From positions 1,968,001 to 2,032,000 of the forward strand of contig NZ_CP129236.1 of NCBI RefSeq assembly GCF_030413615.1: 64,000 bases of DNA, read 5' to 3'. Positions within the stretch are counted from its first letter, which is position 1, and every line of letters begins with the position of its first letter. This DNA is from Planococcus shixiaomingii (GTDB taxonomy: Bacteria > Bacillota > Bacilli > Bacillales_A > Planococcaceae). The notes below the pieces were generated by a model, which had not been told where the DNA came from, made no database searches, and was given only the letters and a program-made list of their open reading frames with translations. This document shows, in pieces, positions 5,119 through 35,310 of the stretch. A program made the translations under genes and the position numbers.

Positions 5119-6261
5119 TTATTCCAACTCAACATCATATAAAAATTTCAAGCGCTGTTGCAACAGTTTTGATGGGACGAAAGGAAATAAAAAATCACGT
5201 GCTGCGGCAAGCGGACGGGAGCGGATTTGGGCAGCTGCGCCAATTTGCCGGGAGAGCCGAATCACTTTTGCCGTGCGGGCAACTCTCTTGTCTTCGTAAA
5301 ATTTCAAAGCTTTCTGTGGATCTTTAAATCGTTTAAAACCATTTCCAAGAACAATGGCGTCCTCAATTGCTTGGCCTGCTCCTTGACCCATATTCGGCGT
5401 TGTAGCATGGGCAGCGTCACCTAGCAGCACTATTTTGCCATAAACGAAGCGGCGAAGCGGTTTGATGTCCAAAATATCGTGATGGAGAATATGTTCTAAA
5501 GAAGTGTTTGCTATAATGTCCGGCACATATTTCGGGAGGTGATCGAACAATTGGGCAATGTTGGCAGGGGATAAATTTTGATAAAGTGGATTTCTGGCTG
5601 TTGAATTGATACATGCAAACCAATAGATTCTCCCGCCCTTCATTGGAGCTATGCCAAAGCGGCCTTTTGTCGACCATAGCTCACTTGACGTATATTCTTC
5701 CACTCGGCCATTGTTGTCTGTTATACCTCTCCAGCAAGTATAGCCTGCGTATCTAGGCTTAGATTCAGGCAATAACTTTTGCCGTATGGGGGAATGTATG
5801 CCATCTGCCGCAATCAGAAAATCAGCGGATATAGGAGTGCCTTCTTCAAAAAAAGCCGTCACTTTTTCGGTGTCTTGTTCGACAAAAACGCATTTTTTTC
5901 CGTATTGAACAGTGCCTGGGGCTAAGGCGTCCATAAGCGTGCGATGCAAATCGCCCCGGTGAATAGTAATGTTCTTTTGGCCAGATCTTTTGCTGAAATC
6001 GCTAAAGCTTGCGACTTTCAAAGGTTTGCCTTTCTCATTTTGTAAAACGAGCGAATGCAGCTCATAGCCATTGGCAAAAACATCATTACCAATTCCGATG
6101 TCCATCAAAGCTTGCATCGCGTTTGAGCCGATTCCGATGCCGGCGCCAACCGGACGAAAAGAAGGGGCCGAATCATAGACTTGAACTAGAATTCCTTGTT
6201 TTTGCAAGGTGACTGCAGTGCATAGTCCACCAATTCCTCCGCCGATAATGGCAATTTTCAT
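5119..6261 (-). CDS. FAD-dependent monooxygenase
   Basis: 380 residues. N-terminal FAD-binding GGGIGG motif right after the start, and the second FAD motif GDAAHATTPNMGQGAGQAIEDA near residue 280, diagnostic of the UbiH/HpxO/salicylate-hydroxylase-like group that inserts one oxygen atom into an aromatic or heterocyclic substrate with NAD(P)H. ATG 6261 chosen since GGGAG lies 8-9 bases upstream and overlaps the alternative GTG 6270. Substrate unknown; no aromatic pathway genes are adjacent. Confidence 0.88.
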   Translation of the reverse strand: MKIAIIGGGIGGLCTAVTLQKQGILVQVYDSAPSFRPVGAGIGIGSNAMQALMDIGIGNDVFANGYELHSLVLQNEKGKPLKVASFSDFSKRSGQKNITIHRGDLHRTLMDALAPGTVQYGKKCVFVEQDTEKVTAFFEEGTPISADFLIAADGIHSPIRQKLLPESKPRYAGYTCWRGITDNNGRVEEYTSSELWSTKGRFGIAPMKGGRIYWFACINSTARNPLYQNLSPANIAQLFDHLPKYVPDIIANTSLEHILHHDILDIKPLRRFVYGKIVLLGDAAHATTPNMGQGAGQAIEDAIVLGNGFKRFKDPQKALKFYEDKRVARTAKVIRLSRQIGAAAQIRSRPLAAARDFLFPFVPSKLLQQRLKFLYDVELE

Positions 6262-10716: not shown

Positions 10717-11634
10717 ATGATTGCAGGAAATATAGAAACAATGAGTCCGGGAAAACTGATGTGGAAAATGACGAGGCCGCACACACTGACGGCGACGTTT
10801 GCGCCGATCATACTCGGGACAGTGATTGCCATGTCGACGACGGCTATCGATTGGGTTTTATTCGCCGCTATGATGATTGCTTGCCTATGCCTTCAAATTG
10901 CGACGAACTTGTTTAATGAATACTATGATTTCAAACGCGGATTGGATACAGCCGAATCAATCGGAATAGGCGGGGGAATTGTCCGGCACGGATTGAAACC
11001 GAAAAACGTGTTGACGGTTGCGCTGATCTTGTATGTAATTGCAGCGATTATCGGCATTTACATCTGCATGAACAGCAGCTGGTGGCTTTTAGCTATTGGT
11101 GCCGTCGGTATGGCCGTCGGTTATTTCTATACGGGAGGTCCACTGCCGATCGCTTACACGCCATTTGGCGAACTGGCTTCGGGTTTATTGATGGGAACAG
11201 GGTTTGTCCTGATTTCGTTCTTTATCCAGACAGGTACTGTCACGCTGACTAGCTTGCTTATTTCCATCCCAATCGCTATATTGGTTGGCGGCATCAACAT
11301 GGCGAATAACATCCGCGACATCGAGGAGGATACAAAAGGCGGGCGCAAAACCCTGCCAATCCTTCTTGGAAGAGATAAAGCGATCAATTGTTTAGGCATA
11401 TTCTTTATCATCGCTTATGCCTGGATTGTGGTTCTTGTCATTACGGGAACGGTCAGCCCTTGGGCATTGCTGATATTGCTGAGTGTACCGAAACCGCTCC
11501 AAGCGATCAAAGGCTTTAAACGCGGCAAAAAAGAACCGAAGCAAATGGGTGTTGCCATGAAATCCACCGGTATCACAAATACGGTGTTCAGTCTTTTGCT
11601 GTCGCTGGGTTTGTTCATCTCTTATATCTTTTAA
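10717..11634 (+). CDS. menA: 1,4-dihydroxy-2-naphthoate polyprenyltransferase
   Basis: About 305 residues, eight to nine TM helices, UbiA superfamily. The first aspartate-rich motif is NLFNEYYDFKRGLD and the second NNIRDIEEDTKGGRKTLP, which bind the prenyl diphosphate through Mg2+. The surrounding GIGGGIVRHGL and TFAPIILGT segments are typical of MenA, which joins DHNA to a polyprenyl chain in menaquinone synthesis at the membrane. ATG 10717 or GTG 10708 could start it. It stands alone here, followed by a terminator, as often in Bacillales where menA is outside the men operon. Confidence 0.93.
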   Translation: MIAGNIETMSPGKLMWKMTRPHTLTATFAPIILGTVIAMSTTAIDWVLFAAMMIACLCLQIATNLFNEYYDFKRGLDTAESIGIGGGIVRHGLKPKNVLTVALILYVIAAIIGIYICMNSSWWLLAIGAVGMAVGYFYTGGPLPIAYTPFGELASGLLMGTGFVLISFFIQTGTVTLTSLLISIPIAILVGGINMANNIRDIEEDTKGGRKTLPILLGRDKAINCLGIFFIIAYAWIVVLVITGTVSPWALLILLSVPKPLQAIKGFKRGKKEPKQMGVAMKSTGITNTVFSLLLSLGLFISYIF

Positions 11635-11635
11635 A

Positions 11636-11675
11636 AAGAAGCACACGAAGGGACAATCTTCGTGTGCTTCTTTAT
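11636..11675 (+). terminator. rho-independent terminator of menA
   Basis: AAAGAAGCACACGAAG-GGACAAT-CTTCGTGTGCTTCTTT right after the menA stop. Confidence 0.92.
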
Positions 11676-11703
11676 TTTGAAGAAATCAGCTAATAAAATG
11701 TTG

Positions 11704-11756
11704 TTTTAATAAATACATGTAGTATTTTACATAAGGAAAACAATAAAAACAAAAAT
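11704..11756 (+). repeat. promoter-like repeat, copy 1
   Basis: About 50 bases resembling the stretch at 12485-12540. Shared words are TTAATAAATA, ATGTAGT and ACATAAGGAAAA in the same order and spacing. Each copy precedes a short gene by roughly 100-160 bases. Copy 1 has TTGTTT followed after 18 bases by TTTTAC. Confidence 0.5.
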
Positions 11757-11912
11757 CAAAAGATAGTTACCAATACTTTAAATAAAGGACAACAAAACGA
11801 TAGCAGCAGAATTCACCTTTTGGCAGAAGTGAAGAGTTTGTTTCTGTTACCTGAAACTTAACTGGCGGTTAAAGCGTAAGTTAAAGAAAAGAAAAAATTG
11901 AAGGAGAGCAGA

Positions 11913-12332
11913 ATGAAAAAATCAATCCTTGCAGTCATCTTACTCGCCATTTCATTAATTGCTTCAGGTTGTTTAACGGAATCTGGAGAGCAGATCATAA
12001 CCGTTCAAAAAAAAGTGGAGGATCAAAATAGTTATGAAGATTTCAATACAGTAACAGAAAAAAGTCAGGTCCAAAAAGCAATAGCCATAATAGAGAATGC
12101 TAACTTCGAAAATTCTAAAATAGAAATGGCCCGGTATGCAGATTACCAGTTTCAATTTCAGTCCAAAAATAACAGAGAGGGCAAGATAGCCACTTATTTG
12201 CTATGGGTCAGTTCAACTGGTGAAAATATAGAGATTGTCACAGAAAGCGAAAACAATAACTATGTCACATTGCCAAAGAAAGATTCAGAAGATCTTTATG
12301 AAATTTTGACAGGGGAAGAATTAACGAATTAA
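11913..12332 (+). CDS. small lipoprotein
   Basis: 139 residues. Signal peptide with lipobox IASGC at about residues 15-20, so lipid-anchored on the outer face of the membrane. The mature part is about 120 residues with a YLLWVSS strand followed by a C-terminal DLYEIL helix, a pattern like the YhfM group of Bacillus lipoproteins. Function of that group is unknown to me. ATG 11913 follows AAGGAG; the in-frame TTG 11898 overlaps nothing useful. Transcript probably ends at the hairpin at 12391-12439. Confidence 0.65.
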   Translation: MKKSILAVILLAISLIASGCLTESGEQIITVQKKVEDQNSYEDFNTVTEKSQVQKAIAIIENANFENSKIEMARYADYQFQFQSKNNREGKIATYLLWVSSTGENIEIVTESENNNYVTLPKKDSEDLYEILTGEELTN

Positions 12333-12390
12333 TGGTAGGTCGCGCTATAGAGGGAAATCAATTAAATGATAAAAATGTTGGGATTCGCAG

Positions 12391-12439
12391 AGTGCCATTA
12401 CTGGTGAAGAGATATTCACAGTAGTGGTGCTATTTTTAA
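12391..12439 (+). terminator. probable terminator
   Basis: AGTGCCATTACTG...CAGTAGTGGTGCT (with G-U pairs) followed by ATTTTT. Ends the lipoprotein transcript. Confidence 0.6.
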
Positions 12440-12484
12440 TGAGTAAAAAGCAATCAAATACTTTTCAGATAACAAAATTCTTTT

Positions 12485-12540
12485 GTATTAATAAATAAAT
12501 GTAGTTTAATACATAAGGAAAATTCAAAATAAAAAAAACA
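12485..12540 (+). repeat. promoter-like repeat, copy 2
   Basis: Second copy of the element at 11704-11756. Here TTGTAT is followed after 18 bases by TAATAC, a plausible promoter for the GNAT gene at 12636. Confidence 0.5.
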
Positions 12541-12635
12541 GCAACTAAGGAAGAAAAAATGGAGTGGAGTGGAAACACTAATTTAAATGATTCATACTGG
12601 ATACAAAACTTTACATGGCTCAAGGAGGAATGTTC

Positions 12636-13097
12636 ATGAATGTTAGGGAAGCCAGAGAAAGCGAATACCAATTGATTTACGAACAAGGTTACCGAGAATG
12701 GGCAAAGGGGAGGTCTCTAGAGGAATACATTAAAGAAAACCAAAAAGAAGAGGCAAATGGGAAGCGTTTTGTGATGGTCAATGACCAAAATCAAATATTG
12801 GCATCTCTTATGATGCTCCAATTTCGGCAAAACTTATTCGGCATCGGCTCAATCGTGGTGGATTCTTCAAGCCGAAAAAAAGGACTTGGAAAAAAGCTGA
12901 TTGAAGAATGCCTCATAAAACATCCGGATGCTGCGTTCATCTTATATAGTGAAATCGATCCGTCGTATTATAAGCAGTTTGGCTTTCGGGTGTTGCCAAG
13001 AGAGTTTCAACAATCTTCTAAGGGGATTTGCATGATCTGTGCGAATGATGAATTGTGCAAGCGAATTTTAAAGGGACCTATACCAGGTTATTTTTAG
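12636..13097 (+). CDS. GNAT-family N-acetyltransferase
   Basis: 153 residues. The acetyl-CoA-binding core is visible as SIVVDSSSRKKGLGKKLIEE (the R/Q-x-x-G-x-G/A type turn) near residues 76-95 and the C-terminal YKQFGFRVLP motif. Expected to move an acetyl group from acetyl-CoA to an amine; substrate unknown. ATG 12636 follows AAGGAGG; the in-frame ATG 12615 lies upstream of that site. Confidence 0.85.
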   Translation: MNVREARESEYQLIYEQGYREWAKGRSLEEYIKENQKEEANGKRFVMVNDQNQILASLMMLQFRQNLFGIGSIVVDSSSRKKGLGKKLIEECLIKHPDAAFILYSEIDPSYYKQFGFRVLPREFQQSSKGICMICANDELCKRILKGPIPGYF

Positions 13098-13189
13098 TTT
13101 TCGAAAAGGGAAAAAAGAGGTAACTTACTCTTTTAAACTTCGGCCTTCTTCATTCAAATATACTTGTTTCTTTTCTTTAATTTTTGTCT

Positions 13190-13237
13190 GAAAAATCATG
13201 TAGTAGGTAGAAAACTTGCCTGCTACATGATTTTTTT
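13190..13237. terminator. bidirectional terminator
   Basis: AAAAATCATGTAGTAGG...CCTGCTACATGATTTTTTT between the convergent GNAT gene and the small gene at 13245. A weaker hairpin (AAGAG-GTAACTTA-CTCTT) lies just after the GNAT stop. Confidence 0.88.
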
Positions 13238-13244
13238 AATACTT

Positions 13245-13421
13245 TCATTCATCAAATAGCCAATTTGCTATTTGAAAAAGTAATGTCAATAACAATACTT
13301 CAAAAATCATATTAACTGAGAACAATTTTTCTTTTTTTTCTCTTTCGAAAAATGATTTAATTGCGACAAAAAATACAGCAATACAAAAAGCACCAAAGAG
13401 AACACCCCATTTAAAATTCAT
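13245..13421 (-). CDS. small two-TM membrane protein
   Basis: 58 residues from ATG 13421, which has AGGGG 9-10 bases upstream. Two hydrophobic helices (about 6-22 and 38-54) separated by a basic loop (FFEREKKEK). No family recognised. Confidence 0.5.
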   Translation of the reverse strand: MNFKWGVLFGAFCIAVFFVAIKSFFEREKKEKLFSVNMIFEVLLLTLLFQIANWLFDE

Positions 13422-13645
13422 AACACTTACCCCTTTTTTAAGCCATATCTTTTGAATCACTACTTCATAAAAATACTGTACCATTTTTAGAAGTGAAAAT
13501 TCTTTCTAATCACAGCAATGGAAAAGTAAACCTGATGCCTCAACAAATTCAAAGAGAAAAATATGTAGGAACGAATATGGTTTCTATGGAAATTTTCTGG
13601 TAAAGTTAATAAATAATCTGACTACTCGACAAGAGGGGGTTCTAA

Positions 13646-13831
13646 ATATCTTACGTTACTCAACGCATTAGAAAAATACTGGGGTTTCTCATTGCATTTG
13701 TATGTTTAATTACCATGATTAATTCAGGGGATAAAAATGGAGAAATGTCTAGCATTTTAGCGACTAGGAATGTTATATGTTTGCTAATTGGAATATCAGA
13801 CATTAGAGAATACAAATCCCGAAATAGTTAA
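13646..13831 (+). pseudogene. small two-TM protein frame without a normal start codon
   Basis: Sixty-one sense codons run from ATA 13646 to TAA 13829-13831. AGAGGGGG lies at the right distance upstream of ATA, suggesting a start codon changed from ATG to ATA. The product would have two hydrophobic stretches and a charged tail (DIREYKSRNS), a layout like the protein at 258-431. Either a recently lost gene or one using a rare ATA start. The rest of 13422-13992 shows nothing else. Confidence 0.4.
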
Positions 13832-13992
13832 AGAACAAACTGCCAATCCTCATAGATGCCCATATATGCAATGCGATTCGGGTGCAGTCCTGTTCATTTG
13901 AAACGTGAGTGAGTTAACTAAATTAGCCTGGTAGACCATATGAACTTTTTAAATGAATCGGAATCGACCAAATAAAAGTAGGCGGGAAAATA

Positions 13993-14367
13993 ATGAAAAA
14001 AATATTATTTATTCTTTTGATTGTCGCTGTTCTATCAGCCTGTAGAGGGACCGAGCCCCGCCCAAATATTAGCGAAGTAGAAAAAGCGCCAGAAGACATA
14101 CATAAACTTATCGATTCGACTGCTACACTTCAACTTGTACTTGAGGATGGGAAAGTTGCCTATCTTATTTACCACTCAAAGGGTGCAGTGACTGCAGATG
14201 TTATGAAACAGGGGAATATATTAAAAATAAAATTAAAGGTTTCCAGCAAAGAAAGCGATGCAATAGAGCGGCATATCTATAAGGTAACGGAAGATGATAA
14301 CACCGGTAGTATAGAGGTTCTAATCAACGGCAAGTCTGTTCCGATTGATGTTATTTCAGGCTTATAG
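13993..14367 (+). CDS. small lipoprotein
   Basis: 124 residues. Signal peptide with lipobox VLSAC at about residues 13-17; mature domain of about 108 residues, beta-rich (LQLVLEDGKVAYLIYHS, ILKIKLKVSS), which would sit on the outer membrane face. ATG 13993 has a weak purine-rich site (GGCGGGAAA). No family recognised. It belongs to a run of short secreted or membrane proteins between 11.9 and 15 kb. Confidence 0.6.
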   Translation: MKKILFILLIVAVLSACRGTEPRPNISEVEKAPEDIHKLIDSTATLQLVLEDGKVAYLIYHSKGAVTADVMKQGNILKIKLKVSSKESDAIERHIYKVTEDDNTGSIEVLINGKSVPIDVISGL

Positions 14368-14557
14368 AAGGGCTATATAGAAAAGAAAGAACGTTTGAAT
14401 GATGGTATTTGGTGCTAACAGTTTCAATGAGAAATTAAGAAGACCCATTTTGAACAACTAAAATTCTACAAACTGAATAAGATAAGTCCCATTAAGTTGC
14501 TTTCATTTTAGTCTTTGATTGTTCGAATTTAAAGGAAACTGTAAGGAGTGAATGACA

Positions 14558-26304: not shown

Positions 26305-27690
26305 TTATTCTGCTTGCTTATAAGTTAATGTTTTGCCAGTGAATCCGAAAATTACTGTCAGTATTGGACAAAGCAGGCAGAAAAAGGCGAACGGCAAGTA
26401 AGAAAGTGTAGAAACCCCTAATACCGACGTGATGAAAATGCCGCACACGCTCCACGGAACGAGAGGATTCACTACAGTGCCTGCATCTTCCATGACGCGG
26501 CTCAAGTTTTTGCCGGTAAGGCCGAGCTTATCAAACTGGCCTTGGAACGCTTGTCCGGTCAACAGAATGGACAAGTATTGCTCACCGATCAAAATATTGA
26601 TGCCAATGGCGGTCATGGCTGCGGCAGCGATAGCAGATGAAACTTTGTTTAACAGTTTCTCGATTTTCCCGAGCAACGTTTGCACGATGCCGAGTGTAAA
26701 CAGTAACCCACCCATGCTGAGAGAGAGCAACACGAGACCGATGGTGAAGAACATGCTTTGCATGCCCCCACGTGTCAATAGGGCATCCACATCTGCGAAG
26801 CCTGTAGCCGACACATATCCACTGAAGAGCATGCTGAGCACTTCTGAGACATGGTAGCTTTGATGTAAATAAGCTAAAGCGATGGCCGCAATTGACGAAA
26901 GGGCCAAGTTCAACATTGCCGGCACTTTCATGAGGGTTAAGATAATTAACAAGACGATTGGCAATACGGCATACCAGTGGATTCCGCCTGTTTTTAACAG
27001 GCCTTCCTGAAATGCCATGATTTTTTCAACGTCAGTAACGGCGACGTCCGGTGAAAGAAATGCAAAAATCACCAATGAAATGATAAACGCCGGAACCGTT
27101 GTCCAGCCCATATTGCGAATATGGGTGAACAAATCAACGTGAACGATGGAAGCTGCCAAATTTGTCGTATCCGATACCGGCGACATCTTATCACCGAAAA
27201 ACGCACCGGAAACGATGGCACCGGCTGTTATAGCAAGCGACACATCAAGAACGCTAGCCATGCCGATGAACGCAACGCCAACTGTTGCAACAGTAGTCAA
27301 AGAACTGCCGATCGCCAAGCCGACGATAGATGAAATTACAAAAACGATGGCAAAGAAAAATAATGGCGTGATGAGGTGGAACCCGGCGTAAATAAGCGTC
27401 GGGATGGTCCCGCTCATCATCCAGCTGCTGATCAAGATGCCGATAAAGAAAAACAAGAACACGGCGCTCATGCCCGCTCCAGCGCCTTTAACCAACCCGC
27501 TTTCAAGCAGATGGTAGGGCACTTTTTTGATGAGGCCGTAGCCAATCAACAGGAGGATGGAAACCAAGATAGGCAAATGCGGCGCAGCGCCAAACTGGAC
27601 CAAACTCACGCTGATTGTTGCCACAATCAGAAAGACCAACAAAAGCGCTTCTTTTAATGATGGTGATATGACTTCTTTAATGTGAAACAT
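26305..27690 (-). CDS. NhaC-family transporter, probable tyrosine transporter
   Basis: 461 residues, about 12 TM helices. The NhaC signature GAIVSGAFFGDKMSPVSDTTNLA is near residue 160, with VGLAIGSSLTTVATVGVAF before it and MEDAGTVVNPLVPWSVCGIF late. The family is named for Na+/H+ antiport, but T-box-controlled members (such as YheL of Bacillus) are predicted tyrosine transporters. The tyrosine T-box upstream supports that here. ATG 27690 follows GGGGG. Confidence 0.82.
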   Translation of the reverse strand: MFHIKEVISPSLKEALLLVFLIVATISVSLVQFGAAPHLPILVSILLLIGYGLIKKVPYHLLESGLVKGAGAGMSAVFLFFFIGILISSWMMSGTIPTLIYAGFHLITPLFFFAIVFVISSIVGLAIGSSLTTVATVGVAFIGMASVLDVSLAITAGAIVSGAFFGDKMSPVSDTTNLAASIVHVDLFTHIRNMGWTTVPAFIISLVIFAFLSPDVAVTDVEKIMAFQEGLLKTGGIHWYAVLPIVLLIILTLMKVPAMLNLALSSIAAIALAYLHQSYHVSEVLSMLFSGYVSATGFADVDALLTRGGMQSMFFTIGLVLLSLSMGGLLFTLGIVQTLLGKIEKLLNKVSSAIAAAAMTAIGINILIGEQYLSILLTGQAFQGQFDKLGLTGKNLSRVMEDAGTVVNPLVPWSVCGIFITSVLGVSTLSYLPFAFFCLLCPILTVIFGFTGKTLTYKQAE

Positions 27691-27720: not shown

Positions 27721-27930
27721 AAAGAAAACCTAACATCCCTTTAAAAAAAGGGACGAAGGTTTTCTCCGCGTTACCACCCAATTTGACAGCCCGATGGACC
27801 GTCCACTTCATTGAAAAAGTTGAAAACAGCTGATGGTGTATTTCATCCGGATTGCTGCCTGAATTTCCATCTGCCATTCAGTCTCTGTGTGCTGCACACA
27901 ATCGGGTTACTTGAACATCTTTCAACGTAT
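27721..27930 (-). ncRNA. tyrosine-specific T-box leader
   Basis: Read on the minus strand: GGGTGGTAACGCGG (the T-box, 27766-27779) and then a strong terminator AAAACCTTCGTCCCTTT...AAAGGGATGTTAGGTTTT at 27765-27722. In stem I, near 27845-27830, GATGAAATACACCATC frames a specifier loop with TAC, a tyrosine codon, in the usual GAA-x-codon-ACC type context. The gene controlled is the NhaC-type transporter. Confidence 0.85.
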
Positions 27931-28090
27931 GTATAGTTGCTTATAGCAATAAATCTTACCATGGCAGTATTTTAAGTCAAGAGAAAAATTTGAACGGGAA
28001 TGACAAAAAAGGAATTGCAGTGAACGGGTCGAATACAGTAAAGAGCAATTGCTAGAGCGTTTAAAAAGCTGAATTTGGGAGGTGAAACGA

Positions 28091-28852
28091 ATGAAAATGA
28101 AGACAAAAATCAAATCGAAGTTGTCCCGAGCATTCGCCTATAATTTTTCGGGTGCGTATGAAAAGTTCACGATGAGCCATATGAACGAATATGAAGGTGT
28201 TCCCGAAACGGTGTTAACCAAACCCCTAAAGGAGTGCACCGTGGCACTGGTATCGACTGCCGGTGTGCACTTGAAATCCGATTTGCCGTTTGACGTTGAC
28301 AACCCGGCAGGTGACCATACATTCCGGCTTATTCCAGGCGATGCAGATGAAAAAGAGTTGACGGTGACCCATATTTATTACGACACGAAATTCGCCAAAA
28401 CCGATCCCTCGATCGTCTTCCCGCTCCAGCAGCTGAGAGACATGGCGGAGACTGGAGACATCGGAGCTGTGGCAAGTGCCAACATCGGGCTGAACGGCGG
28501 CATCCTGGACACCCAATTGGTCGAACAGGAAAGCATCCCACAAGTGGTAAAACTTATTCGAAATGAAAACATCGATATCGTGCTGCTCGTGCCTGGCTGA
28601 GGATCTTGCCATAACGTACTCGGGCTGTATGCCCGGGCTTTAGAAGAAGCTCATATCGCCACCGCCATGGTTTCGATTTTTCCGGAGGTAACCGACAAAG
28701 TTGGTGCTCCCCGTACGCTTCACGTGCCGTTTAAAATGGGGCGGCCGTGCGGCGAGCCGTTTGACTTTGATACTAGAAAAAAAGTCTTAAAGCAGCTACT
28801 TGAACTGGCGATAATGCCGTCTGGGACGCGGATGGAATATAAAGAAACCTGA
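28091..28852 (+). CDS. GrdB-family protein with in-frame TGA, putative selenoprotein
   Basis: 253 sense codons plus one internal TGA at 28598-28600. The first part (170 residues) matches the GrdB family (selenoprotein B of glycine/sarcosine/betaine/D-proline reductases and their uncharacterised relatives): FRLIPGD, a THIYYDT segment, PLQQLRDMAETGDIG, then IDIVLLVPG. After TGA the frame goes on with GSCHNVLGLYARALEEAHIAT and later GRPCGEPFD to TGA 28850-28852. Relatives carry U-x-x-C at this point, so TGA followed by GSC fits selenocysteine. A hairpin right after the TGA could be the SECIS. ATG 28091 has GGGAGG upstream. If the genome lacks selA/selB it is instead a nonsense mutant. Confidence 0.78.
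28619..28637 (+). promoter_or_regulatory. SECIS-like hairpin
   Basis: Seven-pair stem CTCGGGC / GCCCGGG (one U-G pair) with loop TGTAT, whose G lies 27 bases after the TGA. Bacterial SECIS elements are inside the gene, just 3' of the UGA, with a small loop holding a G-U at about this distance. Without a search tool this is only a shape match. Confidence 0.55.
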
Positions 28853-28856
28853 TATG

Positions 28857-28894
28857 AAAAAGCCAAAAGCTTTTCCTATGCTTTTGGCTTTTCG
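28857..28894 (+). terminator. rho-independent terminator
   Basis: AAAAAGCCAAAAGC...GCTTTTGGCTTTT directly after the final stop of the GrdB-family gene. Its position supports the gene ending at 28852 rather than at the internal TGA. Confidence 0.88.
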
Positions 28895-31305: not shown

Positions 31306-31370
31306 TAAAATGCCTATGGTATATTTAGACTATCGCATCGCAGTTGTTTTACATAGAAAGGGGCACTAAC

Positions 31371-32723
31371 ATGCAATTAACCATTCAAGCTGCCGGGGAA
31401 AACGTCAAAGCCATTTCCTATTTACTGGCGAAGAACCCGAACAATATATACGAACGCAGCAACAAAGGGCACATGGTGCGCTTTTTTTACAGCAAATGCA
31501 CCGATACGGAACTTGAAGCGACGATTTTTGTCACTCCGGATCCGCTCGAACTCATTCAAAATAAATCAAATTCTTATGACATAACCCACTACATAAACGA
31601 CCGGGAGTTTGCCGTCAGTAGCATTTTCACTTCGTTTATCCGCTCGGCGCTCGGCACCGCGCTCAACGGCCAGCCAAAAGAGGAATACGCGGAATGGGTC
31701 AATCACCGGTTTCCGTTCCGTTTTGAATTCGGTCCGGTGGCGTCTTCGCTGACCGACCAACAACTAAAAGAGTTATTCGAACCCATCGGCTACGAAGTGA
31801 CCATCACCCGTCCCGAAATCGACTACTCCATCCACATCAAAGACCGGAGTTCGGTGCGCACCATTTCGCTTGCGGGCATGCAAACGCTGCAAAATGGCCT
31901 GCGCCATTTGTTCGTCTTGATACCGGTCATCGATAACTACAAGCATTACTTTATCGATGAAAAGGAAATTGAGAAGCTGGAGCGCTACGGCGAAGGCTGG
32001 CTGGAAACGCATCCCTTGCGCGACTTCATTTACCGGCAAGCGCTGCGCTTCAAAGAAATCTACAGTTTGGTGGAAGCTGCCAATACGCCACTAGAGAAAA
32101 AGGAACCGGCAAAAGCGGTCCGCTTGAATGATCTGCGCTACAAAAAAATTATCGAGCTGTTAGAGACAAGAAAACCCAGCAGTGTAGTTGATTTCGGTTC
32201 CGGTGAAGGAAAGCTCACTTCTAAGCTCGGATTCCTCAATGGCGTTCAGGAGATTTTGGCAGTTGAGCCTTCCCAGTCAGCGACATTAAAAGCGGTGGAG
32301 CGGTTCACGAAGCTGCAGGATGATGACCTCTTTACAATGCCAACGACCATGTGGGGTTCGCTGTTTTATTTTGACGAGCGGCTGCAAGGTAAAGATGCGA
32401 TGGTTCTATGCGAAGTGATTGAGCATATCGATGAGCCGCGTTTGCCAAAGGCACTAGATACCATTTTGCATAATTACCAGCCTGCATCTCTGATTATTTC
32501 GACGCCTAACCGCGAATACAACGAAGTATACGCTATGGAAGATCATTTCCGGCACGCGGATCACCGCTTTGAGTGGACCCGCACGGAATTCGAAAACTGG
32601 TGCAACGAACGGAACCACCAGAACCTGTACGAACTCGAATTCCATGGCATCGGGGAAGAACAGTCTCTCTACGGGCATCCGACTCAATTATGCATGTTTA
32701 AAAGAAAGGAAGAACAATCATGA
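31371..32723 (+). CDS. hen1: bacterial Hen1, 3'-terminal RNA ribose 2'-O-methyltransferase
   Basis: 450 residues. N-terminal half is the bacterial-only domain that contacts Pnkp; the C-terminal half is a Rossmann methyltransferase with VVDFGSGEGKLT at 273-283 (S-adenosylmethionine site), metal-binding EVIEH at 348-352 and FRHADHRFEWTR near 393-404. Hen1 methylates the 3'-terminal 2'-OH of a cut RNA before Pnkp ligates it, so that the repaired tRNA cannot be cut again by the same ribotoxin. ATG 31371 has AAAGGGG. The stop overlaps the pnkp start (ATGA). Confidence 0.95.
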   Translation: MQLTIQAAGENVKAISYLLAKNPNNIYERSNKGHMVRFFYSKCTDTELEATIFVTPDPLELIQNKSNSYDITHYINDREFAVSSIFTSFIRSALGTALNGQPKEEYAEWVNHRFPFRFEFGPVASSLTDQQLKELFEPIGYEVTITRPEIDYSIHIKDRSSVRTISLAGMQTLQNGLRHLFVLIPVIDNYKHYFIDEKEIEKLERYGEGWLETHPLRDFIYRQALRFKEIYSLVEAANTPLEKKEPAKAVRLNDLRYKKIIELLETRKPSSVVDFGSGEGKLTSKLGFLNGVQEILAVEPSQSATLKAVERFTKLQDDDLFTMPTTMWGSLFYFDERLQGKDAMVLCEVIEHIDEPRLPKALDTILHNYQPASLIISTPNREYNEVYAMEDHFRHADHRFEWTRTEFENWCNERNHQNLYELEFHGIGEEQSLYGHPTQLCMFKRKEEQS

Positions 32724-35310
32724 AAATCGGTATGCCTCACGCAGGGATTGTCTTGCTCATCGGACCGTCCAACAGCGGGAAATCCACCCTGCTTACGAAA
32801 CTAATCAACGACCAAATCATACTGGCATCGGAAGTGGTCTCTTCAGATCAATTCCGCGTGCTGGTCAGCGACAAGGAATTCATCGACTGGACCAACAAAC
32901 CGCAAGACGAAGCGGCCGGTTTAATGGACGAATACGGAGCCATTTCCACTGAAGCGTTCACGATGATGGACGCTCTTATTGAAACCCGTTGCCGCTTGAA
33001 CAAAATCTCGTTTGTGGATGCTACGCACTTGCACTCGGATGACCGAAAACGCTATGTCGCGCTGGCGGAGAAAAACAACGTGCCGATCATTTCTTTCGTA
33101 TTTGATATTCCAGAAGCAGAGTTGCTCCAGCGCGACGAATTGCGGGACTTGCCGCGCGGCAGACGGCGCATCAAGCAGCAATTCCAAGTGTTCTCGAAAG
33201 AAAAACGCTGGATTAAAAAGAAGGCTTCGCCTCTGTCTATACGATAAAAGATACGGAAGGGTTGGAATTCTTCCGCCGCACGAACCCGCTTGAGAAAGAC
33301 ATCGGCTCTGGGATAGACGTGATCGGTGATGTCCACGGCTGCTTTGAGGAATTGATTGAACTGCTCGTGAAAATGGATTACCGGGAGAATGAAGACGGCT
33401 TGTTCGTCCATCCGCAAGGGCGCAAGTTTGTGTCGGTCGGCGATGTCATGAGCCGAGGACCGGCTTCTTTGGAAACGATGCGTTTTTTCCAGCGCCATGT
33501 TGTGGCGGAGCTCGCTTATATGATCGACAGCAACCACGGCTGGAAAATCGCCCGGTGGCTGGATGGCCGCAACGTGGTTCTTAGCCACGGCGATGAAAAA
33601 GTGGAACAGGAATTCGTTGCCTTCGAGCAAGCGGAAGGAAGCGAAAAAGCGGCAGCGCTGAAAATCGCTTTAAAAGAGTTTTTACTCGAAGCGCCTTCTC
33701 ATTTGGTGTTCACAAAAAATGGCGTACCGGTCTTAGTTAGTGCGCATGCCGGCATCAAAGACGAATTCATCGGCAAAGAGTCGGCTGCCGTCCGTGATTT
33801 TTGCCGTTACGGCGATACGGGCGGATTCGATCAACACGGAAAACCGGTCCGGAAAGACTGGACCGTTTTCCATGCTACCCGTTCTTTAATCGTCTGGGGG
33901 CATGATCCAAAGCCCCGGCCTTTAGTGATCAACAACACCATCAACATTGACCAAGGCGTGGTTTTTGGCGGCGCGTTGACGGCTTACCGCTATCCGGAGC
34001 GGGACTTCGTATCCGTCGCCGCTAAAGAGAACTACGCCGGCACGACGGATAACCCGCTATACGAATGGGAGAGAAACCGGTTGAACCCGCCGAACATCGC
34101 CAAGTTCCTGCATGGCTATTCGGTCTTGACCGAAGAACTTGGGGAAGTCAAAGTCCAGCCCGAAATCGTCAAGCCGGCCATTGACGCCGTATCGCATTTT
34201 ACCGTGCCGATTGAACAATTGGTGTACATCCCGCCGACGATGAGCCCGACACCCAAACCATCCCGGTTGGCTGATTTTTTGGAACACCCACAAGAAGCGA
34301 TCGACTATTACCGCAGCAACGGCATCGAGACGCTGATCGCAGAGAAAAAGCACATGGGCAGCCGGGCCGTCTTATTGCTGTTTGAAAACAAAGAAGCGGC
34401 ACTTAAGCATACCGGCATGGAGACACTCGGCATCATCCACACCCGCACTGGGAAACGCTTTTTTGATGCGGAAACGGAGCAGCTTGTGGTCGAGCGGCTG
34501 AACCGTGAATTGGCGCAGAAAGATTATTTCCGCAAGTACGGCACCGATTTCGTCTTACTGGATGCCGAAGTCATGCCGTGGAACCTGAAAGCGAAAGAAC
34601 TGATCAACGGCCAGTATGCCCACGTGGCTGAAAACGCCATACTGGACCGGTCGTCGTTACTGACGAAGCTGTCAAACGCTTCTGCGGGCAATGAAGAACT
34701 GAAAAAATGGCTCGGAGAATATGAGCAGAAGCTGGAGAATGCCCACACCTTCCGCGACGTTTTCCAGAAATACTGCTGGGAAGTGGACGGGGTCGAGTCG
34801 ATTCAGATTGCGCCGTTTCACGTGCTCGCCCACAGCGAGGAAACGTTCTTTGACAAGCCGCATACATGGCACATGGCAATGAACCGTGAATTTGCAGAAG
34901 GGTCAGAGTTGTTTGTTGCGACCGAATTCAAAGTCATTAGAGATGAAGCGAGCGAACAAGAAGTGATTGACTGGTGGCGGCAGATGACCGAAGAAGGCCA
35001 TGAAGGCATTGTCATCAAGCCCGAGTCTTACGTCGCGAGAAATAGAGGCAAGCTGCTTCAGCCAGCGATCAAAGTCCGGGGCAGCAAGTACTTGAGCATC
35101 ATTTACGGCATGGACTACTTGGAACCGGAAAACCTCTGCTGCCTGAAAAACCGCAATACCGGCAAGAAACAGAAAATGGCCTTGAAGGAATTTGCCTTGG
35201 GGCTGGAAGGCATTTCGCGTTTCCAAAACGGGGAATCGATCGAACGGGTCCATGAATGCGTGTTAGCGACACTCGCACTGGAATCGGATCCGGTCGATCC
35301 GCGCTTATAA
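32720..35310 (+). CDS. pnkp: Pnkp, RNA end-healing and ligase enzyme, split by a -1 frameshift
   Basis: Pnkp has three modules. The 5'-kinase is in the first frame, with P-loop GPSNSGKST at residues 15-23. The 2',3'-phosphatase starts at GDVHGCFEEL and contains VGDVMSRGP and SNHGWKIARWL. The adenylyl-transferase (ligase) carries KKHMGSRAVLL with the catalytic lysine region. Frame one (32720-33247) stops at TAA 33245 after KKKASPLSIR. Shifting back one base at AAAAAG (33215-33220) joins it to EGFASVYTIKDTEGLEFF, then the phosphatase, giving about 863 residues, the normal length. The cause is either one A lost from the run, or programmed slippage. Without a shift, frame two would need to start at TTG 33262 with no spaced ribosome site. 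Confidence 0.88.

Follow-up and report, generated by a model that had tools for sequence, protein, structure and literature searches.

PrdB, the selenocysteine (Sec)-containing 26-kDa subunit of D-proline reductase (TIGR04483), and GrdB are both listed as UxxC selenoproteins in passages of two reviews, and the glycine, sarcosine and betaine reductase enzymes are described, in a passage of a review, as having further subunits. Sequences termed 'Proline reductase PrdB', likewise UxxC selenoproteins, are given as abundant in two marine collections, with 42 sequences in the Sargasso Sea set and 235 in the GOS set (PMC1088965, PMC2398784). A UGSC family (seleno)protein, NF041046, appears with the motif UGSC in part of a published table, and the relevant lines of a 2006 table count three selenoproteins in Bacillales. 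Selenoproteins are rarely retained by aerobic bacteria according to a passage of PMC13188914, in which PMC12013261 and PMC9879109 are cited for new selenoprotein families; Sec users are counted among aerobes and anaerobes alike in a passage of PMC5029168. Planococcus is absent from the main text of the selenoprotein reviews and surveys that were checked for PrdB and GrdB, and the literature search returned nothing on selenoproteins in Planomicrobium and nothing under 'selenoprotein B family protein'.

The window, i.e., the whole stretch of DNA analysed here (64,000 nucleotides of Planococcus shixiaomingii contig NZ_CP129236.1, positions 1,968,001 to 2,032,000 of the forward strand), contains a gene that, judged from its sequence and those of its relatives, almost certainly encodes a selenoprotein. 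The fuller reading, a stand-alone selenol/thiol two-electron reductase of the PrdB/GrdB superfamily that works without PrdA or GrdE, is considered probable. Selenoproteins tend to be treated as a trait of anaerobes; Planococcus (in the broad sense, including the Planomicrobium hosts) is a genus that we take to be aerobic. The features of the locus are as follows:

26305–27690, minus strand: NhaC-family antiporter.
28077–28085, plus strand: likely ribosome-binding site GGGAGGTGA of ATG 28091 (by eye).
28091–28852, plus strand: PrdB-like gene, very probably for a selenoprotein of 253 aa with Sec170; true stop TGA 28850–28852.
28598–28600, plus strand: UGA, with little doubt the selenocysteine codon (Sec170 of UGSC); TGA in 19/19 full-length orthologues of other genomes, Cys in the distant locus L071.
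28618–28638, plus strand: apical stem-loop, presumed bacterial SECIS (fold, near-invariant synonymous sites and pair counts).
28858–28892, plus strand: intrinsic terminator with a 13-bp stem, a 9-nt loop and a T-rich 3′ arm (by eye and folding).

Translation of 28091–28852 (+) gave 253 residues with U at position 170, a single in-frame TGA at this codon interrupting an otherwise open frame. The preliminary description had noted that GSC follows this TGA at once, so that U-x-x-C would form, and the motif is indeed UGSC. Under table 11 the open reading frame starts at GTG 28082 and stops at 28600 (172 aa), which favours the view that the UGA is a real stop and the gene a pseudogene or one for a truncated protein of 169 residues. 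Between TGA 28598–28600 and the last stop lie 83 residues; the earlier count of 84 protein-like codons included the final stop. The chance of a stop-free run of 83 codons is approximately 0.015 at this composition, so the open frame alone is modest evidence. The frame after the TGA is nevertheless secure, because the TGA is conserved in all 19 orthologues and dN falls far short of dS both before and after it (pairs with computable dS; dS was incomputable in some), and the claim of an intact frame on either side of the TGA is thereby upheld.

The terminator described after the final stop is real: its inverted repeat comprises 13 bp (28858–28870/28880–28892, by eye), with a folding energy of −18.9 kcal mol−1 and a z score of −5.9. 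It was not listed by a pattern scan with a loop limit of 8 nt, probably because its loop of 9 nt exceeds that limit. The upstream neighbour, an NhaC-type antiporter with a T-box-like leader, lies on the opposite strand, and the terminator is followed by an EamA transporter, an arrangement that suggests a transcription unit of one gene. The leader match upstream of the antiporter (27746–27934, minus strand) scored 74 bits and did not reach the gathering score of 93; leader and antiporter together suggest an amino-acid-responsive transporter. Elsewhere in the window (31344–33247, plus strand) a Hen1-like methyltransferase (PF12623) precedes an open reading frame with a P-loop-like motif (by eye), possibly an RNA-repair pair.

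The gene was matched in 24 of 100 relatives (own genome included). Other genomes hold 19 full-length orthologues (17 in congeners, one in G071 and one, with only 47% identity, in G077); each of them keeps the in-frame TGA at the Sec codon, which is hard to reconcile with a real stop. Exactly one in-frame TGA was present in 28 of the 29 match rows from the 100 relatives, the exception being genome G026, and in 84 of the 86 rows from a phylum sample (63 of 398 genomes with a match), many of these 86 rows being longer, GrdB-sized frames. The Sec site was read in 57 matched loci (own included), namely those returned from the 100 relatives and the 398 phylum genomes; they cover 28 of the 86 phylum rows, and L016 and L038 recur in both sets. 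UxxC was found in 54 of them and Cys in one, the distant relative L071 (AGCGTC); the two loci without the motif are L039, an internally deleted copy, and L097, a very remote frame. Tryptophan at the Sec site occurred in none of the 57 loci. The residue of the relatives at this site, named earlier as a possible refutation, is Sec or Cys. No Cys form was seen inside the window-type clade among the matches in the 100 relatives and 398 phylum genomes. Named contigs with matches over residues 1–252 (72–76% identity) came from Planomicrobium soli, P. okeanokoites, Planomicrobium sp. Y74, Planococcus sp. CAU13 and P. halotolerans; judged from the positions of the match, the P. soli contig appears to correspond to congener G010. 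The Sec motif has been lost through an internal deletion in the orthologue of Planococcus sp. MER TA 32b; this copy (L015) and L039 of G026 presumably belong to the same genome. Such a damaged copy in one congener would suit a pseudogene; G026 still has SelB, and the loss is apparently recent. Three congeners each have an additional, distantly related PrdB-like frame whose motif is UPIC and not UGSC (L040 in G001, L041 in G007 and L042 in G005).

A stem of seven pairs (28619–28625/28631–28637) with the loop UGUAU (28626–28630) is formed in the window, and an eighth pair (28618/28638) is possible in 9 of 20 sequences. Most orthologues fold as YUYGGGC-UGUAU-GCCCGRG, at a distance of 20–40 nt downstream from the U of UGA 28598. 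Synonymous sites were compared in 19 orthologues (own, 17 congeners and G071; G077 was left out), which yielded 90 degenerate codon columns with a single amino acid throughout. Mean codon diversity was 0.085 at codons 177–184 (7 columns) versus 0.488 at the 78 columns that do not fall in codons 171–184, a value as low being reached in 0 of 100,000 random draws; codons 178–183 (GGG CTG TAT GCC CGG GCT) are invariant save for one CGA across these orthologues, for which pairwise dS to the window was approximately 1 or more, or not computable. None of the eight stem pairs had changed on both sides, and pairing was no better than in shuffles; covariation was rejected as SECIS proof for want of a compensatory pair. 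Fold energy was modest for the window stem alone (z −1.37 versus shuffles) and unremarkable for a wider stretch (z −0.53). In alignment columns 21 and 24, 9 of 20 sequences have both G21 and T24, and the other 11 have neither; compensation of stem strength by these columns was rejected, since there were three changes each on the tree and just two independent pairs in support (sign test, p 0.5). Synonymous freezing is taken as stronger evidence for a SECIS than fold energy or covariation: it marks a stem-loop just after the UGA, despite the lack of compensatory pairs and the ordinary fold energy, and the element 28618–28638 is presumed from this pattern to be a bacterial SECIS.

The genome (4.02 Mb) carries tRNA-Sec, selA, selB and selD, the very genes for which a search had been proposed at the outset. 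tRNA-Sec scored 62.6 bits (Rfam cut-off 47), the sole match over the cut-off among nine listed by the model in this genome, and was called by ARAGORN as tRNA-SeC with anticodon tca. The scores for selA (TIGR00474), selB (TIGR00475) and selD (TIGR00476) were 560, 375 and 422 bits, all above cut-off, and the three genes adjoin the tRNA-Sec gene at locus L009. At the default E-value SelB matches all 100 genomes on account of other translation GTPases, and the count was restricted to matches over the curated cut-off; these occurred in 43 of the 100 genomes, including all 24 holders of the gene (G033 by a partial match, 292 bits), and no match to the gene was found in the 57 genomes below the cut-off. 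Within the 45 congeners, selB was over the cut-off in 17/17 holders and 6/28 non-holders (table 17/0/6/22; Fisher p 1.2e-7, uncorrected for kinship). Because 6 of the 23 selB-bearing congeners (G002, G017, G023, G026, G028 and G035) have no intact copy, the gene is dispensable and not essential to the Sec trait.

Taken with the conserved TGA, the purifying selection and synonymous freezing downstream of it and the presence of SelB in every holder argue against a real stop, which is regarded as highly improbable. Tryptophan insertion or ordinary near-cognate readthrough, each of which would account for a frame that is open past the TGA, is less probable still: the site has TGA or Cys in a UxxC motif in 55 of 57 loci and Trp in none, and the genome has tRNA-Sec, selA, selB and selD, with SelB present in all 24 holders. 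Use of selenocysteine, as the preliminary description had proposed, is strongly supported by the machinery, the TGA conservation, the frozen synonymous sites and the co-occurrence with SelB. From the machinery and the RNA constraint, both shown computationally, we infer that the UGA is decoded as Sec170; SelB, Sec-tRNA-Sec and the stem-loop 20–40 nt past the U of UGA 28598 would act together in this step.

Further observations were made at locus L009. The selD gene (10934–11983) has an in-frame TGA of its own (KGGUGCK). Beside selA, a ResA/TlpA-like gene (5263–6021) has an in-frame TGA (WASWURC) and matches NF041054 'ResA-like WAxxUGC' at 2.5e-34, below cut-off; it is a probable further selenoprotein gene. 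A PhnD-type binding protein, matched by TIGR04553 'putative selenate ABC transporter' at 6.6e-51, again below cut-off, follows selD and is itself followed by permease- and ATPase-like frames (by eye; whole region 12069–14544), perhaps an importer of selenium oxyanions. The one formate dehydrogenase alpha match of the genome has no internal stop.

In the NCBIfam scan the best family for the window protein was TIGR04483 PrdB (1.6e-45; 155.4 bits versus a curated cut-off of 300), with the GrdF, GrdH and GrdB models far behind. Against the GrdB models TIGR01918 and TIGR01917 it scored 36.8 versus 65.45 bits and 34.3 versus 602.2 bits, respectively, thus remaining below both cut-offs, and it is also too short for GrdB. 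The gathering score of PF07355 was exceeded (32 versus 22), and UxxC lies at the common column, which places the protein in the broad PrdB/GrdB superfamily. Its assignment to the GrdB family therefore holds in the wide sense of PF07355, and the profile score is nearer PrdB than GrdB. NF041046 did not match the window protein up to an E-value of 1.

A tree was built from 39 aligned proteins, the window protein and 38 of 48 other references; ten near-duplicates were left out (L025, L040, L041, L073, L075, L077, L078, L082, L083 and L093), and the list of 48 excludes L021, L022, L044, L086, L089 and L092 (open frames of more than 400 aa) as well as L039 and L097. The window type forms one group of 17 (support 100/100) and the UGTC/CGTC-type PrdB proteins a group of 10 (100/99), whereas the UPxC type (including one UYIC) is not one group; the deeper order of the tree is unsure owing to long branches and midpoint rooting. 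Cys220 (GRPCGEP) is present in 17/17 members of the window clade and, in that column, in 0/22 other proteins. Residues invariant in all 39 proteins include D75, D105, R182, E185, R208 and G217. By profile score the window protein is more PrdB-like than GrdB-like, and in the tree it belongs to a clade of its own.

PF09338, which we take to be the family of the pyruvoyl subunits PrdA and GrdE, was present in 2 of the 100 relatives (G062 and G092) and absent from the own genome and from every window-type holder (100 relatives; 0 of 14 control genomes matched). As a positive control, 29 genomes that hold PrdB-like matches were used: all 18 with a best match of UGTC/CGTC type had PF09338 within 1 kb (hand count), and none of the other 11 had it near the match (best matches only; second ones, e.g., in G329, not included). 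The GrdA family PF04723 gave no match, a weak result as no control genome matched either. The protein might still be a PrdB subunit of D-proline reductase, or a GrdB subunit, acting with a pyruvoyl partner, for which the best family and the alignability over residues 40–239 speak; the shortfall from the cut-off (155 versus 300 bits), the separate clade, the adjacent PF09338 in 18/18 UGTC/CGTC-type genomes versus none here and, weakly, the missing GrdA make this improbable. Because PF09338 was not found in the genome, the PrdB cut-off is not reached and the clade is separate, the protein is not a subunit of D-proline or glycine reductase of the known type, and the free-standing state proposed earlier agrees with these results. 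The neighbourhood was compared for 18 loci and the window (of 20 loci fetched, L052 and L058 dropped out because the gene was missed by the ORF caller). Neighbouring genes differ between sub-clades and are common only to close relatives, the window sharing its own with L050 and L051, and gene context was rejected as a functional guide for this reason.

A structure model with Cys at position 170 (pLDDT 92.4, pTM 0.91) puts residue 170 between strand 163–167 and helix 171–186, in a predicted loop before a helix N-terminus, a common place for a redox-active motif. A search by sequence found no solved structure of a relative, and fold comparison of the model gave generic matches only. As a stand-alone reductase, the alpha/beta protein would carry Sec170-Gly-Ser-Cys173 in this loop as many redox proteins do; Sec170 would attack the substrate and Cys173 would resolve the intermediate, perhaps helped by the clade-specific Cys220, with recycling by a cellular thiol system such as thioredoxin. 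The best guess is that the substrate is a small metabolite, oxidised or electrophilic, and that the protein serves redox homeostasis. Instead of general redox work, the selenoprotein could carry out a specific catabolic reduction without a pyruvoyl group (e.g., an amino-acid-like substrate might be deaminated or undergo reductive ring opening); it retains the residues invariant in 39/39 PrdB-like proteins, yet comparison of the 18 loci and the window showed no pathway genes that accompany it, and this alternative is considered rather unlikely. Tentatively, and with somewhat better prospects, the aerobic-Bacillales subfamily may be self-contained selenoenzymes, in which the PrdB half of a clostridial reductase has parted from its pyruvoyl partner and become an obligately selenium-dependent reductase, with Cys220 as third catalytic cysteine and a reduction not yet described; the obligate dependence is suggested by the absence of a Cys form in the clade and of the gene below the SelB cut-off (100 genomes).

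Selenoproteins of PrdB type are already known; what is new here is the separate clade, the way it is spread through the genus and the absence of a partner, the families of PMC12013261 and PMC9879109 lying outside the comparison. The genus would keep at least three probable selenoproteins (SelD, the ResA/TlpA-like protein and the PrdB-like protein), and the stand-alone protein offers a simple test case for a PrdB-type Sec site without a pyruvoyl subunit. As it falls below the NCBIfam PrdB and GrdB cut-offs, annotation that relies on cut-offs may miss the gene.

Among known systems, the marine PrdB selenoproteins, which rank among the more abundant families of the samples surveyed (PMC1088965, PMC2398784), share UxxC with the window protein. 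The NF041046 model matches 9 of the 39 aligned proteins weakly (best E-value 1.1e-5). With GrdB, GrdF and GrdH (PF07355) the window protein aligns over the C-terminal half of the models (positions 206–420 of 435, approximately), and in L044, a match of GrdB size, the motif at this place is UGTC; the PF07355-type models have about 431–435 positions, whereas the window protein is 253 aa long, stands alone and reaches E-values of only 1e-7 to 5e-14. The closest described relative is PrdB, which has a similar length and UxxC in the same column; identity to the ten UGTC/CGTC-type PrdB proteins of the 39-protein alignment is 31–38%. The window type differs from these in its missing PF09338 partner and its own clade, in having HNVLGLYA after UGSC or UGTC, where the PrdB type has HRSAVIVQ, and in having GRPC, with the extra Cys220, where the PrdB type has GANA or GANV.
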